Origin: Gemmatimonadaceae bacterium
GTDB lineage: Bacteria; Gemmatimonadota; Gemmatimonadetes; Gemmatimonadales; Gemmatimonadaceae
Direction of reading: 5' to 3'
Assembly (NCBI GenBank): GCA_019186945.1
Contig: JABAQJ010000005.1
Coordinates: forward strand, 124,001-188,000
Length of the DNA stretch: 64,000 nucleotides
In this document: one piece after another, positions 1,300 to 17,941 of the stretch
How the letters are laid out: each line of letters starts with the position of its first letter
Position numbering within the stretch: the stretch's first letter is position 1
Notes under the pieces: generated by a model
Database searches by the model: none
What the model saw: only the letters and a program-made list of their open reading frames with translations
What the model was told of the DNA's origin: nothing
Made by a program: the position numbers and the translations under genes

Positions 1300-1458
1300 T
1301 GGGCGCGTCACCCCCATGCGACGTGAACGGTCTGACCATCGTCCAGCCGCCGAGTTATGAACACGGGCTCGAGCATAATCCGGCGGGGCATACGAAACCG
1401 CGGTCAATATAACTCGTTTCGTGCCACTGGCTACGTGCAACTAGGCAAGGCGCGCAAC

Positions 1459-1496
1459 GTGGAGAACCGCCAATTGTGGATTGGCGGGTTTTCCAC
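1459..1496 (-). promoter_or_regulatory. Long inverted repeat in the ftsA-ftsZ intergenic region
   Basis: Positions 1459-1474 pair with 1480-1496 to give a nearly perfect stem of about 16 bp with a five-base loop. The repeat units also contain three GTGGA/TCCAC words (1459-1463, 1476-1480, 1492-1496). The second and third can pair with each other instead, so two mutually exclusive hairpins are possible. On the ftsZ-coding strand no T-run follows, so this is not a clear intrinsic terminator. An attenuator, an RNA-processing or stability element, or a protein-binding site are all possible. The placement between ftsA and ftsZ suggests separate control of FtsZ levels. Confidence 0.5.
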
Positions 1497-1576
1497 AAAT
1501 CCGATCCTGCGATCCTTCGACCGGTCACTCCTGGCTTCAGCGAGCCGCCGCGGGGCCACCGACGGCGCACTCCGCT

Positions 1577-12634: not shown

Positions 12635-14655
12635 GGCCGCCACAGACGCACGACGGTGCCGCTGCGAACCTGCGCGCCCGCCGCCGGCTGAGTCGCGCCA
12701 TCTCCGGATCCCGCCAGAACGACCTTCAGACCCGCGCGATGCAGCTCGCGCACCGCTACTCGAAGCGGCAATCCGGCCACCGGCGGTACGCTTACGAGCG
12801 AATCGGTGCGCGGGACGTCCCGCAACGGACGGCCGAGATCAAACCGGATTGGACCGCGCAGCGGCGGCTCCGGCATCGTGTCAACGAGAGACACGGGCGG
12901 CAGTGCAGGACCGCGCGGCGCCGAGTCCTCGACGACAGCCCCAGCATCCACGACCTGCTCCAGTGGCACTGGCGCCGGGTCGAATCGCGGTGCGGAACGG
13001 ATCTTCTGAGCAGCGAGTGTGCGACCGTCGAGATTCACGCTCCGCGAGGCGATCGCCGCCTCGATCACATTCCTGGCGACGGGCGCGGCCGCCTTGCCGC
13101 CGTAGTAAGTCTTGGCAGGGTTGTCGATCTTCACGAGCACCACGTACTGCGGGTCGTCCCCGGGGAAGATCCCGATGAAGGTCGACGTGTACATCCCCTG
13201 CCCATAGCGACCGCCCGACGTACGGCGCGCGGTCCCGCTCTTGCCAGCCAGATTGAACGTCGCCAGCTCGGCGTCCGTCGCCGTGCCGCTGTCCACGACA
13301 CTCTGGAGAATGCGCCGAAGGGTGGCACAAGTCTCCGGCGTCAGAACCTGCCGGACGACACGCGGCGAATGCGTGTAGATCGTTCGGCCATCCGCGTCCT
13401 GCACGGATTTCACGATCGCCGGCTGCATCAGCCGGCCGCCATTGGCGATGGCGCCGTAGGCGACTGCGAGCTGCAACGGCGTGACGCTGATCTCGTATCC
13501 GATCGCCAGCGACGCGTGCGACTGCGCCGTCCACTTGCGGACTTCGCGCAGCGTACCCGCCGCCTCCGACGGATAGGTCATGCCCGTCGGCGTACCGAAA
13601 CCGTAGTCGCGCAGGAGTTCGTATTGCTCGCGATCCGTCAGTCGTTCCGAGAAGCGCGCGATGCCTACGTTGCTGGAGAAGCGGATGACGTCGGCCAGTG
13701 ACAGCCGCTCGGCCTTGTGGACGTCGTTGATCGTGCGGCCGGCCACGGTATACCGGCCGTCGAAGGTCTCGATCATCTCGTCCACTCGGGCCAGCCCGCG
13801 TTCGACGAGGGCGCCTGCATAGAGCGGCTTGAGCGTGGAACCGGGCTCGAACGGTTCAGTGACGGCAGTGGCGGCGCCAACCCGCGAACCGGCTCGCCTG
13901 CTGGCAAGGCAGCGCACTTCGCCATCCCGAGGATCCAGGACGACAATGTCACCGCCCTCGGCGCCAAGGTGCGCTGCTGCCTCGGCGAGCGCGCGATCGC
14001 AGATGTCCTGCAGCGCGAGATGTATCGTCAACGTCACCGTACTCCCCGCCCGAGGCGGTTCGGTCAACAAATCCGGTGACTCATAACGTTCGCCATTCGC
14101 TCCGCGGAACGCAGCCGTTCGGCCGCGCACCCCGCGCAACAGAGAGTCGAGCGCCAGCTCCAACCCATCCACGGCCACACCGCCAGATCCGGTCCGGCCC
14201 ACGATACGGCGGACCCCGTCGCTCGCGACATACAAGCGCTCGCTCACCGACCTGGCATGGACGCCCGGCATGCGAGCGAGCACCACGACATCCGATGGCT
14301 GGAACGTCTCCGACAACTCCACCCATTTGTGCTTCCGGTCCGACACACGCCGAATGACCGAGCGCCCCACCCCCAGGCGTGACAGCGCCCTGGTCAATTC
14401 CCGCATATCGCGCACTTCCGGCGGCGCGATCGCGATGCGCACGCGCTCCTGGCTCCGGACCAGCGGCACGCCGGCCGCATCCCGAATCTCACCGCGTGGA
14501 GCGTCGAGCGACGTCTGCGCGAGATGCTGTTTCTCCGCGGCTCGCCCCCAGATCTTTCCGTCCAGTAGCTGCACCTTGGCGGCGCGCGCCGTGAGCGCCA
14601 GGGCAAACAACGCCAACGCGACATGAAGTACGGACAATCGGTTCACACGGACCAT
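12631..14655 (-). CDS. ftsI: Septal penicillin-binding protein FtsI with C-terminal PASTA domain
   Basis: Class B transpeptidase cross-linking septal peptidoglycan. The 674-residue protein starts with one transmembrane helix (about 8-25), followed by the pedestal domain and the transpeptidase domain. Catalytic motifs are S273-T-L-K276, S327-S-N329 and K472-S-G-T475. After a Pro-rich linker the last 60 residues form a PASTA domain (from VPPVAGLPLRVAVRELHRAG), a feature better known from Gram-positive PBP2x and SpoVD. It is followed by murE with overlap and preceded by ftsL with a two-base gap. Confidence 0.95.
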   Translation of the reverse strand: MVRVNRLSVLHVALALFALALTARAAKVQLLDGKIWGRAAEKQHLAQTSLDAPRGEIRDAAGVPLVRSQERVRIAIAPPEVRDMRELTRALSRLGVGRSVIRRVSDRKHKWVELSETFQPSDVVVLARMPGVHARSVSERLYVASDGVRRIVGRTGSGGVAVDGLELALDSLLRGVRGRTAAFRGANGERYESPDLLTEPPRAGSTVTLTIHLALQDICDRALAEAAAHLGAEGGDIVVLDPRDGEVRCLASRRAGSRVGAATAVTEPFEPGSTLKPLYAGALVERGLARVDEMIETFDGRYTVAGRTINDVHKAERLSLADVIRFSSNVGIARFSERLTDREQYELLRDYGFGTPTGMTYPSEAAGTLREVRKWTAQSHASLAIGYEISVTPLQLAVAYGAIANGGRLMQPAIVKSVQDADGRTIYTHSPRVVRQVLTPETCATLRRILQSVVDSGTATDAELATFNLAGKSGTARRTSGGRYGQGMYTSTFIGIFPGDDPQYVVLVKIDNPAKTYYGGKAAAPVARNVIEAAIASRSVNLDGRTLAAQKIRSAPRFDPAPVPLEQVVDAGAVVEDSAPRGPALPPVSLVDTMPEPPLRGPIRFDLGRPLRDVPRTDSLVSVPPVAGLPLRVAVRELHRAGLKVVLAGSGDGATQPAAGAQVRSGTVVRLWRP

Positions 14656-14657
14656 GC

Positions 14658-14978
14658 CTATCTTCCTCTCCGCGTTGCTGCTGCCGGCAGTGGCAGCAGG
14701 ATGACCTGACTGTCGTTAGGGACGTGCAGGCCGAGGCGCGACTCGACGCGGACGCCGAGCTTCCCACGACTGGCCAGCGTGACGATGTCACTCTCCAGCT
14801 GCAGCCGGCGCGACTCCAGCTCGGCCCGGCTGCTTGCCAGCGTCTGGAGGGAACGCGCGGCCGCCATTCCTCTGGTGCGACGCCACACCACACTGGTCGC
14901 TACCACGAGGAATATCAGGAGCGTCGTCGCGATCAGCCGACCGCGCGACGCAATCCCCCATCCGCCACCGCTCCTCAC
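14658..14978 (-). CDS. ftsL: FtsL-like cell division protein
   Basis: Small bitopic protein of about 106 residues. It has a basic N-terminus, one transmembrane helix (ATTLLIFLVVATSVVW), then a periplasmic coiled coil rich in Leu, Arg and Glu. It ends with LGLHVPNDSQVILLPLP, the usual closing pattern of FtsL. Position between rsmH and ftsI is diagnostic, since sequence conservation is poor in this family. I chose the GTG at 14978, which overlaps the rsmH stop as GTGA; longer reading would run through rsmH. It probably acts with FtsQ and an unlinked FtsB. Confidence 0.82.
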   Translation of the reverse strand: MRSGGGWGIASRGRLIATTLLIFLVVATSVVWRRTRGMAAARSLQTLASSRAELESRRLQLESDIVTLASRGKLGVRVESRLGLHVPNDSQVILLPLPAAATRRGR

Positions 14979-15910
14979 GCGGCGCGACGCCACGCTCGCA
15001 AGCGCGCGCTGCGCGCACGCACGTTTCGGGCTGTCTCCTCCTCCGAGGCCGTAACAGGGCGGCGCGTGATCGTGGAACCCAGCGAGTGCCCCCGGCACGT
15101 GCAGACTGGCTGCTTCGGTTGACACACACAATCCGCACTCCAGGAGCGAAACGCGTTCTTCACGATTCGATCTTCGCCAGAGTGGTAGGCGATCACGACC
15201 AGCGTGCCGCCCGCAACCAGCCGGTCGCGGAGTTCCGGGAGCGCTCGTTCCAGCCCTGCCAACTCGTCGTTGACCTCGATGCGTACTGCCTGGAAGAGCC
15301 GCGCGAAGTCGTGAGGACCGGCCGAACTGCCGAGCGCGGCGCGAATCGCATTGACCAGATCGTCGCTCAAGGCGAATGGCTTCGCGACGCGACGATGGAC
15401 GATTTCCCTGGCAAGACGGAGCGCACGGCGTTCGTCGGCATATTCCCTGAAGATAAAGGCGAGTGTCGACTCGTCCGCGTCGTTAAGCAGTCCTGCGGCG
15501 TCGCTCGCGCTCCCCACGCCCATGCGCATATCCAGGGGTGCCCCCGGCCGGAAGGAGAAGCCGCGAGTCGCATCATCGAGTTGATGCGACGACACTCCGA
15601 GGTCGAGCAGGATACCATCGAAGCTGCTATCCGTCAGCTCCGACTCGGCGATCTGAGCGTAGTTCGTCAGGTATGCGCGAAACCGACCGGTTGCAGCGTA
15701 GTCGACCAGCCGTGCCGTTGCCGCCCGAATCGCTTCGGGATCGCGGTCGACGCCAGTGACGTCCGCCCCGTTTTCGAGCAGGGCCTGCGCGTGGCCGCCA
15801 CCGCCAAGCGTACAGTCGAGAACGTGGCGTGCGTCGCGGAACATCTGCACGACTTCGCGCGCCAGCACGGGCGCATGAAACGAACTCTGGTACGTCAGAA
15901 GTACGGTCAC
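14975..15910 (-). CDS. rsmH: 16S rRNA (cytosine(1402)-N(4))-methyltransferase RsmH
   Basis: SAM-dependent methyltransferase (formerly MraW) modifying C1402 in the ribosomal P site, and the usual first or second gene of dcw clusters. The 311-residue protein begins with the family motif FHAPVLAREVV. The SAM-binding loop LDCTLGGGGHAQALL follows, then ILLDLGVSSHQLD and near the C-terminus VVIAYHSGEDRIVK. The start is GTG at 15910. A convincing -10 box ends nine bases upstream, so the transcript may be leaderless or nearly so. There is no mraZ ahead of it. Confidence 0.96.
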   Translation of the reverse strand: MTVLLTYQSSFHAPVLAREVVQMFRDARHVLDCTLGGGGHAQALLENGADVTGVDRDPEAIRAATARLVDYAATGRFRAYLTNYAQIAESELTDSSFDGILLDLGVSSHQLDDATRGFSFRPGAPLDMRMGVGSASDAAGLLNDADESTLAFIFREYADERRALRLAREIVHRRVAKPFALSDDLVNAIRAALGSSAGPHDFARLFQAVRIEVNDELAGLERALPELRDRLVAGGTLVVIAYHSGEDRIVKNAFRSWSADCVCQPKQPVCTCRGHSLGSTITRRPVTASEEETARNVRARSARLRAWRRAA

Positions 15911-15919
15911 TGAAACGTC

Positions 15920-15949
15920 ATTCTAGTGAAGCCTCGCGAGGTGCGTCAA
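15920..15949 (-). promoter_or_regulatory. Sigma70-type promoter of the dcw cluster
   Basis: On the minus strand TTGACG (15944-15949) and TAGAAT (15920-15925) are separated by 18 bases, each matching the sigma70 consensus at five of six positions. The spacer contains a perfect ten-base palindrome, CCTCGCGAGG (15932-15941), a plausible operator. Transcription would begin around 15911-15914, leaving zero to four bases before the rsmH GTG. Confidence 0.65.
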
Positions 15950-16024
15950 GCCGCGCCCGCCTCGCCGAATGTCCACAGCCCGCGCATTGCCCGGAACCAC
16001 GTTAGGCGGCAGATGCCATACGAA

Positions 16025-16059
16025 CGACGCCCGCCGAATCGAGGACTCGGCGGGCGTCG
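16025..16059 (-). terminator. Hairpin terminator downstream of the TPR gene
   Basis: A perfect 13-bp stem (16025-16037 with 16047-16059) and a nine-base loop lie 22 bases after the stop of the upstream minus-strand gene. The stem is almost entirely GC. The T-tract is poor (TTCGT), so it may terminate weakly or act as a 3' stability hairpin. It separates the TPR gene from the dcw promoter. Confidence 0.6.
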
Positions 16060-16080
16060 CATCGGGTCATGCCGATCTCC

Positions 16081-17793
16081 CTACTTGCAGATCGCCTTGC
16101 CCAACTGCTCCGCGTACGCATTGAGTTGCCCCAGCCCGTCCATCAGCTGCTTGGCCTGATCCGGGAATGCGCGTCCGCCCGCCGGCACATGGATTTGCGC
16201 ATTGCCAAGGTACACCTGCGCCTTCTTCAAGGCGTCGCAGTTCTTGTTCGGTGCCGCATCCTGCGTGAGGATAGTCTGGCTGATCGTCACTTCCGTCGCA
16301 CCCATCAGGAACTTCGCCGTCTCCGACGGGCTGATGGAATCGGCGGCCGCCAGCACACGAAGAGCCGCATCGCCGTCCGCCTGAGACTTCGAACCCTGCG
16401 AGAACGCCTTGAACAGCGCATTTCCCTTCGTCAGCGCCATTCCACCGGCGATCTTCGCGTCATCGCCAGCGGCGACCGCAGCCCGTAGCGCCGACAGCAT
16501 CTCCTCGGTCTTGTCCTGCTCCGAGTAGATCTGCGCGATCTGGAGGTTGACGCCGGGGTGCTTCGGATCGATCGCGATCACCTTGTTGAATGCCTCGAGT
16601 GCAACCGGTCCCTGGCCCGCCTGGCGGGCGAGCTGGCCCTGCGTCATCAGGAGTTCCGTGTTCTGCGGGAACTTGGCAACGGCACGAGACGCCGACTCGA
16701 ATGCCTTCGCCGTGTTGCTGTCAGCCACGTAGGCGGCGATCTGGCGCTGCCAGAAGGTCGTGTCCGCGAAAGCGGTGTCCGTCTTTACCAGTTCCTCACC
16801 GATCTGCGCCGCTCCCCTCCAGTCCTTCATGGCACGATATACGGTCCACTGCAGTCGGATGAGCGATGGGTCGCCAGGATTCTGCTTGACGGCTTCGTCG
16901 ATGATCGGCTTGGCGATTTCGGGCTTGCCGGCGGCGCCAAGGGCGTTCACGACTGTCTCCTGCAAGCGAGTGTTCGTCGGGTCCGCTGCCAGCAGCGTCG
17001 TCAGCGTCGTGATGTACTTGTCTTCCATCTTCGCCGCGTTGTAGGCGTCAGCGACCAGCGTCAGCGCGCGACGGTTCTGCGGATGAATCTTGAGGATGTC
17101 TTCCGAGAGCTTGATGATGGAATCCGGCGACGCCTTTTTCGTGTTGGCGATCTCCAAGGCACAAACGCGTGCAAAGACGCTGTTTGGGTAATCCTTGAGC
17201 GAGCGCTCGATATCCTTGGCGGCTTCGTCGAACTTGTTCTGGCGCCAGTTGAGCATGCACGACGCGCTTCCGGCAAGCTGCTTCCGCGACTTTTCGATTT
17301 CCGACGCGGCGGCCTTCGCGATGTCGTTGAGCTTCTCGCCCGTGAGTCTCGGGAGCGGCTGCACCATTCCGTCGCCGCGCACGAGCAAGTGGTATGCATC
17401 GGCTTGGTAGCCGCTGGCAACCTTCGTGACCGTCGCATCCATGTACTCCTCGGCACGGAGTAGCTGCGCCAGCGCCTTCAGGTCGTTGGCATTCAGCGCT
17501 TCGGTTTGTGAGTAACCGGAAGCCACGAGCGTGTTTTCGATATCCGACTTGGGAATGATCCACAGGGTCCGCAGCATGAACTGATCGCCCATGCGTTCGC
17601 GGACCATCTCACCAGCTTCCTTGCCCAGACCCGCTTCCGCGGAACGGAGAATCGGGACGAGGAAACGGGGACCGGGCGTTTGACCACGCTGGAGCGGGGC
17701 CTGCTGCTGCGCGCCGAGCATTCCCGTTGCACCGACGAAGAAAATCGCGGTGACTGAGGAGACTGTGCGCGCAAAGCGCTGCCATGCCTTCAC
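16081..17793 (-). CDS. Secreted tetratricopeptide-repeat protein
   Basis: A protein of about 570 residues with an N-terminal signal peptide (basic start, hydrophobic AIFFVGATGML, cleavage after GAQ). A domain of roughly 150 residues of unknown type is followed by a long run of helical TPR-like repeats, for example FARVCALEIANTKKASPDSI and VALEAFNKVIAIDPKHPG. The start is GTG at 17793, eight bases after a consensus GGAGG; the longer frame to 17832 has no such site. It is probably periplasmic. The closing region CDALKKAQVYLGNAQIHVP is not recognised. Function unknown; TPR proteins usually assemble protein complexes. The tRNA-Val gene is 75 bases upstream on the same strand. Confidence 0.85.
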   Translation of the reverse strand: MKAWQRFARTVSSVTAIFFVGATGMLGAQQQAPLQRGQTPGPRFLVPILRSAEAGLGKEAGEMVRERMGDQFMLRTLWIIPKSDIENTLVASGYSQTEALNANDLKALAQLLRAEEYMDATVTKVASGYQADAYHLLVRGDGMVQPLPRLTGEKLNDIAKAAASEIEKSRKQLAGSASCMLNWRQNKFDEAAKDIERSLKDYPNSVFARVCALEIANTKKASPDSIIKLSEDILKIHPQNRRALTLVADAYNAAKMEDKYITTLTTLLAADPTNTRLQETVVNALGAAGKPEIAKPIIDEAVKQNPGDPSLIRLQWTVYRAMKDWRGAAQIGEELVKTDTAFADTTFWQRQIAAYVADSNTAKAFESASRAVAKFPQNTELLMTQGQLARQAGQGPVALEAFNKVIAIDPKHPGVNLQIAQIYSEQDKTEEMLSALRAAVAAGDDAKIAGGMALTKGNALFKAFSQGSKSQADGDAALRVLAAADSISPSETAKFLMGATEVTISQTILTQDAAPNKNCDALKKAQVYLGNAQIHVPAGGRAFPDQAKQLMDGLGQLNAYAEQLGKAICK

Positions 17794-17867
17794 TTGACGT
17801 ACCTCCGAAACGTTGAGCGTGCGAACGGACAATTACACCCTGCTCCGGCGCTGGATCCAGCGCCCAG

Positions 17868-17941
17868 TGGGCGAAGAGGGACTCGAACCCCCGACTTCCT
17901 GCGTGTAAAGCAGGCGCTCTAACCAACTGAGCTATTCGCCC
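17868..17941 (-). tRNA. tRNA-Val (anticodon TAC)
   Basis: A full cloverleaf of 74 bases. The acceptor stem is GGGCGAA/TTCGCCC with discriminator A, the D-arm is GCTC...GAGC, and the anticodon stem CCTGC/GCAGG encloses the loop TTTACAC, giving anticodon TAC. The T-arm loop is TTCGAGT. The CCA end is not encoded. It may be co-transcribed with the TPR gene that follows. Confidence 0.96.

Follow-up and report, generated by a model that had tools for sequence, protein, structure and literature searches.

Organisation of the rsmH locus

The DNA analysed here, referred to as the window, is a stretch of 64,000 nucleotides from a member of the Gemmatimonadaceae and carries a dcw cluster whose first gene is rsmH (mraW). 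Downstream of rsmH are genes for a PBP/transpeptidase and then a Mur ligase, and far downstream two genes which we take from their sequences to be ftsA and ftsZ, ftsZ being also backed by a sequence search. Relatives are referred to below by locus (L), genome (G) and genus (g). The features around the start of rsmH, in the direction of transcription, are:

16081..17832, minus strand: open reading frame for a TPR-repeat protein, the upstream neighbour of rsmH, in the place of mraZ
16023..16060, minus strand: strong hairpin in the interval separating rsmH from the TPR gene (56-nt fold, -37.6 kcal/mol, z -6.0)
15969..15989, minus strand: conserved upstream element CAATGCGCGGGCTGTGGACAT, 20-40 bases upstream of the -35 (profile rank and alignment)
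15944..15949, minus strand: -35 hexamer TTGACG (sequence reading and related promoters)
15943-15926, minus strand: 18-base spacer CACCTCGCGAGGCTTCAC (sequence reading)
15932..15941, no strand: perfect 10-bp palindrome CCTCGCGAGG inside the spacer, judged a chance occurrence (sequence reading and chance tests)
15920..15925, minus strand: -10 hexamer TAGAAT, 18 bases past the -35
15919-15911, minus strand: nine-base stretch GACGTTTCA between the -10 and the GTG (sequence reading)
15908..15910, minus strand: GTG start of rsmH, with the transcript predicted to start at about 15915-15911
15896..15898, minus strand: in-frame CTG, an alternative start of rsmH
14975..15910, minus strand: rsmH (Pfam Methyltransf_5, 4.6e-85)

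The hairpin, judged by its computed fold, is the probable terminator of the upstream gene, though it has no clear T-run. A tRNA-Val (tac) at 17867-17941 precedes the TPR-repeat reading frame in the window. The TPR gene is the upstream neighbour of rsmH in most of the relatives examined, and in some it stops within a few bases of rsmH. No regulator gene was found beside rsmH in 12 upstream regions of relatives, 11 of them covering 1.5-3 kb.

The promoter in front of rsmH is conserved in relatives

The promoter reads as the original prediction described it: TTGACG and TAGAAT are 18 bases apart and the latter ends nine bases before the rsmH GTG. Ten of the 12 hexamer positions match the sigma-70-type consensus (TTGACA/TATAAT-like, 16-18 bp). 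It is the single match between positions 13000 and 18000, where shuffled sequence gave 0.6 (sd 0.7), and taken alone it is no better than chance. It is regarded as real because the layout recurs in relatives. Searching with a -35 matching at least 5/6, a spacing of 16-19 and a TAnnnT matching at least 4/6, the layout was detected in 32 of 129 non-identical Gemmatimonadota regions upstream of rsmH; in the control, 30 rounds of dinucleotide shuffling, the average was 0.37 and no round exceeded 3. The spacer is exactly 18 bases in all 32, and TTGACG is present in 27. In the other 97 regions the layout was not detected at the same thresholds, and in some of these, read by eye, the upstream gene stops within a few bases of rsmH. 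The counts point to a sigma-70-type dcw entry promoter, TTGAC-18-TAnnAT, that recurs in this group of Gemmatimonadota.

The upstream set began as 195 sequences, made up of 80 named loci, L081 and L086-L114, four mraZ loci, the window, and 80 stretches taken in list order from, and thus covering part of, the 172 genomes with an RsmH match. It was reduced to 129 as the N-terminal motif was missed in three, two were too short, and identical sequences were removed. Eight loci of genus g4 (L017, L018, L029, L042, L044, L045, L059 and L114) carry a conserved dyad in the spacer, GGTGC-ACTCA-GCAC(C/T), and farther upstream the blocks TAATGCACAT and ATCACATCCGTG.

The rsmH message may be nearly leaderless

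Transcription would be expected to begin about 5-9 bases after the -10, which would put the 5' end of the mRNA about 0-5 bases before the rsmH GTG, and the mRNA would then be translated with next to no leader. The leaderless mRNA claimed originally is plausible to this extent, the predicted leader being very short. In L037 and L106 the sequence GTG-ACC lies 11 bases past the -10 and offers the only start codon; L106 belongs to genus g19 and L037, from its matching position on the contig, is taken to be the g19 genome G211. Across the group, an in-frame rsmH start follows the end of a TANNNT at 6 nt in 14 of 129 regions (2.0 expected) and at 7 nt in five (1.1 expected), giving 19 of 129 for the two spacings together, and these recurrent leaderless-type starts mostly use other -10 sequences. 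The spacing in the window is 9 nt, compared with the 6-7 nt typical of leaderless genes. A simple gene caller, run over 464 kb of the genome to which the window belongs, gave 339 genes, 14 of which have a TANNNT ending 6-9 nt before the longest-frame start, against about 3.3 expected from internal codons, so the leaderless type is a minority mode in this genome.

Seven relatives of genera g10 and g13 have an ATG that aligns codon for codon with the window CTG at 15898-15896, 12 bases past the GTG, and the true start could therefore be this CTG, with a leader of about 14 nt. Many relatives with the same promoter start rsmH 21-39 bases after the -10, which also fits an ordinary short leader, whether through use of the CTG or through a transcription start elsewhere. 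Against this, CTG start codons are rare, and the g19 relatives share the GTG-ACC near the -10 with no other start. An ordinary short leader is considered rather unlikely, and a near-leaderless message starting at the GTG is tentatively preferred.

In many relatives, as read by eye, the -10 closes with bases that make up an ATG (TAnnATG). In the window (15922-15908), L009, L010, L014, L018, L031, L033 and L041 the tiny frame that it opens ends in a TGA overlapping the rsmH start (GTGA/ATGA), and in the window this frame reads ATG ACG TTT CAG TGA. In the Gemmatimonas-type loci L010, L014, L027, L036 and L058, also read by eye, a frame ATGACGCGCC...GCGTGA is kept though the -10 is lost. A conserved short upstream reading frame at TAnnATG was nonetheless set aside, the frames having been read by eye, because the predicted transcript would begin past this ATG and the ATG is in different frames with respect to rsmH from one lineage to another. 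In L127, L133, L154 and L021 the sole in-frame start ahead of the HxPV motif conserved in rsmH shares bases with the -10 (TAGnATG); the transcript should lack this codon, so another promoter or another start codon would be used there.

The spacer palindrome is best explained by chance

The palindrome CCTCGCGAGG had been described as filling the spacer and as the operator of a repressor. It is perfect, but is 10 bases long in a spacer of 18 and so does not fill it. A palindrome of this kind is expected by chance: perfect ones of 10 bp number 108 in the window, 1.5% of the window's 18-mers hold one, and shuffling the spacer produced one in 182 of 20,000 trials. Sites within one mismatch of CCTCGCGAGG number nine in the window where 8.72 are expected. 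The comparison with relatives proposed together with the operator, a search for the palindrome in front of their rsmH genes, found it in one of 129 upstream regions, and this is the lack of conservation by which the original prediction had asked to be judged. It is absent from the other 31 promoters, where no contiguous palindrome in the spacer exceeds 6 bp, and the only site elsewhere among the 129 that is within one mismatch is in L010, which has two such sites and no such promoter. The idea that a repressor binds CCTCGCGAGG draws on the position of the palindrome between the -35 and -10 and on the missing mraZ; given its rarity in relatives and its chance-level frequency in the window, it is highly improbable. 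The operator was rejected, and the palindrome would play no part in control.

mraZ is missing from almost the whole family

MraZ is a widely conserved regulator of dcw clusters. Its absence from the usual position, as originally stated, was borne out and extends further: the Pfam MraZ family (PF02381) has no match before rsmH or anywhere in the window's genome, so the arrangement of an MraZ-regulated cluster, with mraZ first and rsmH next, is not found in the window. mraZ is absent from 176 of 179 genomes of the family, with matches in three (one of the 105 good-quality genomes). In a sample of the phylum MraZ was matched in 60 of 150 genomes, all 60 from other families. Of four sister-family loci collected, the three inspected for gene order, all but L083, have mraZ directly before rsmH. 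The mraZ of G213 lies just before a divergent rsmH in a genome with four rsmH matches, and that of G211 has no rsmH motif within the 1.8 kb read around it; both copies are suspected contamination. The match in G191 is weak and 25 residues long. Together these results indicate that mraZ has been lost across nearly the whole of the Gemmatimonadaceae.

A conserved element lies upstream of the -35

In the g10/g13 relatives, sequences similar to GGCAATGCAC-N4-TGTGCATAACTCC precede the -35 at a fixed distance, and the element CAATGCGCGGGCTGTGGACAT occupies the corresponding place in the window. A weighted profile of the seven g10/g13 sequences, with the window excluded, was scored on all window positions on both strands. 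The window site at 15989-15969 (-40..-19) ranked 3 of 127,958 and a longer block (-46..-8) ranked 5 of 127,924, with the edges chosen post hoc after the similarity had been noticed and the offset fixed by the -35. Scored separately, the two halves are less striking (ranks 703 and 145). One half, at 15977-15969, resembles a DnaA box with two mismatches, and the left half, GGCAATGC, is kept in the window at least as well.

A long pattern allowing up to three mismatches had 12 matches in eight genomes, against none for a reversed control. Seven of the 12 are at rsmH in the seven g10/g13 genomes; the window's rsmH site is not among the matches because it differs at 5 of 19 positions. G259 and G090 each have an apparent second copy some 14 kb downstream, which turned out to encode the FtsA C-terminus and was dropped, leaving three other extra matches. 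In L238 and L239 the codons for the FtsA C-terminus (NVDKL) contain the DnaA-box-like TGTGGATAA and mimic the element, which makes them a trap for motif counts. One pattern drawn partly from the window's own letters has zero mismatches by construction and is no evidence. A LexA-type reading of the dyad in this element, which rested on a Fibrobacter motif, found no support, the dyad being not clearly enriched and no usable literature being found.

These data suggest that the regulatory site is likely to be the conserved upstream element rather than the palindrome. The earlier suggestion that another regulator has replaced MraZ thus fails at the palindrome but keeps some life at this element.

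DnaA-like boxes accompany the rsmH promoter in several relatives

The DnaA box has the consensus TTATNCACA. In the g10/g13 relatives, two genera other than the window's, the right half of the element is TGTG[CT]ATAA, a perfect DnaA box. Over the 129 upstream regions of 300 bases, TTWTNCACA is present exactly in eight (shuffles 0.42) and within one mismatch in 37 (shuffles 13.5). The boxes were then counted in the 70 bases ahead of the -35 for 35 promoters, namely the 32 above together with L127, L187 and L190, which are below threshold and were added by eye. Exact boxes were present in 8 of 35 promoters and 2 of 11 promoter clusters, with none of 400 permuted patterns reaching two; boxes within one mismatch were present in 22 of 35 and 5 of 11 clusters, a cluster count that one of 400 permuted patterns reached. 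The 94 upstream regions without the promoter had no exact box and three within one mismatch.

The window's half-site has two mismatches to TTWTNCACA, six of the 11 promoter clusters have no box within one mismatch, and the place and orientation of the box vary between lineages. The dnaA locus of the window's genome has two copies of TTTTCCACA, 37 nt apart, and domain IV is conserved in the DnaA proteins of the family that were examined. On this evidence DnaA is the leading candidate for the protein that would bind the upstream element.

The element might instead be an operator at which a regulator specific to rsmH, and not DnaA, recognises the dyad ATGCAC-N5-GTGCAT of the g10/g13 relatives. 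In favour of this, conservation of the left half GGCAATGC in the window is no lower than that of the DnaA-like half, few matches to the long pattern lie anywhere but at rsmH, and the free position of the box is mostly G (or A/T) in front of rsmH but mostly C in the boxes of the family's dnaA loci. However, the window's site lacks the dyad symmetry and differs from the long pattern at 5 of 19 positions, the bare dyad has 100 matches over eight genomes against 74 for its control and is not clearly enriched, and the gene adjoining rsmH is mostly the TPR gene and in none of the 12 upstream regions a regulator. Such a regulator is rather unlikely. It is also conceivable that no specific regulator is involved and that the block, as DNA close to the promoter, has been kept by descent or through contact with RNA polymerase, as the genera sharing it form one cluster with the window. 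The RsmH proteins of those seven genomes are just 61-66% identical to that of the window, a divergence at which unconstrained intergenic DNA should be largely randomised, and the block is not A+T-rich and is held at a fixed offset; this explanation is quite unlikely. Binding by DnaA is the reading tentatively retained for the element.

DnaA boxes between ftsA and ftsZ

A further pair of boxes is found in the ftsA-ftsZ gap of the window (1300-1576), so that a DnaA box is present upstream of ftsZ:

1489..1497, plus strand: exact DnaA box TTTTCCACA, the only exact TTWTNCACA in the 64-kb window
1475..1483, minus strand: inverted, degenerate partner CAATCCACA of this box (read from the sequence)

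A 400-kb sample of the window's genome has four exact TTWTNCACA boxes. In the family, 69 ftsZ loci were sampled out of 167 genomes with a match and 26 gaps were kept, the other 43 being dropped as the ftsA stop was not located by pattern. An exact box is present in 7 of these 26 gaps and in 7 of 11 genera, where 300 permuted patterns gave a mean of 0.12 gaps, with none exceeding 4 gaps or 2 genera; a few gaps among the 26 are long enough, at up to 466 bases, to raise the suspicion of a misplaced ftsA stop. Within one mismatch the count is 22 of 26 (permuted mean 4.0), a figure that one of the permuted patterns matched, so that discrimination is limited to the exact count. A looser count, an exact box in 31 of 69 loci, was replaced by 7 of 26 because several genus g4 matches appeared to fall inside ftsA. 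The boxes (window 1475-1497, and gaps among L256-L324) are mostly TGTGGAnAA in the direction of transcription and in most clean cases sit about 35-120 bases past the ftsA stop. The ftsZ boxes are the firmest part of the proposed link between DnaA and the cluster.

Comparison with known systems

Leaderless genes have been described with a TANNNT -10 box beside the start codon (PMC3160421, PMC12340547). The window resembles these in that its -10 is a few bases before the start and the gap has no Shine-Dalgarno sequence, but differs in having a full -35 at 18 bases and a nine-base gap. Counted from its first T, the leaderless TANNNT lies about 12 bp upstream of the start according to PMC3160421; in the window this distance is 15, and a leader of a few or of about 14 bases is possible.

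In MraZ-controlled dcw clusters, the E. coli promoter mraZ1p gives a 38-nt 5' UTR and in R. sphaeroides the 5' UTR is 268 nt (PMC5089854). Such clusters and that of the window share a single promoter ahead of the first gene; unlike them, the window has no mraZ, begins with rsmH and has almost no predicted leader. The DnaA-controlled promoters of Caulobacter include that of ftsZ, with two DnaA boxes (PMC3193534). The window is similar in having DnaA-type boxes before ftsZ, one exact and one inverted and degenerate. It differs in belonging to another phylum and in that several relatives also have DnaA-like boxes before the dcw entry promoter.

The titles and abstract openings surveyed, with part of PMC10783764, included no study of a leaderless or DnaA-box dcw arrangement in Gemmatimonadota, and no paper on transcription start sites in Gemmatimonas was found.

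A model for dcw control without MraZ

The promoter, the upstream element and the boxes are present and conserved, and mraZ is absent; the transcription start, the binding of DnaA and the sign of regulation are what we infer from them. The model preferred, tentatively and at a little short of an even chance, is a near-leaderless entry promoter with an idle palindrome, on which DnaA acts through 15969-15989 and also at the ftsZ box. The promoter would be of a constitutive type, adjusted from upstream: control would act through the element 20-40 bases before the -35, where bound DnaA would modulate rsmH transcription, and DnaA would probably act likewise through the exact box of the ftsA-ftsZ gap. 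The supply of division genes would in this way be tied to replication initiation in a family largely without MraZ.

The control of dcw clusters after the loss of MraZ has, to our knowledge, been little explored. The more general proposal, that in the Gemmatimonadaceae, with MraZ largely lost, DnaA now regulates both ends of the cluster, the rsmH promoter through the element and ftsZ through its boxes, is speculative, with the chances clearly against it. Were it true, transcription of the division genes would directly track replication initiation, and the first message would be nearly leaderless. Should the boxes not be DnaA sites, the element would still mark a different dcw regulator. The near family-wide loss of mraZ, the conserved boxes before ftsZ and the DnaA-like elements before rsmH in several genera together offer a testable link between replication initiation and the supply of division genes.
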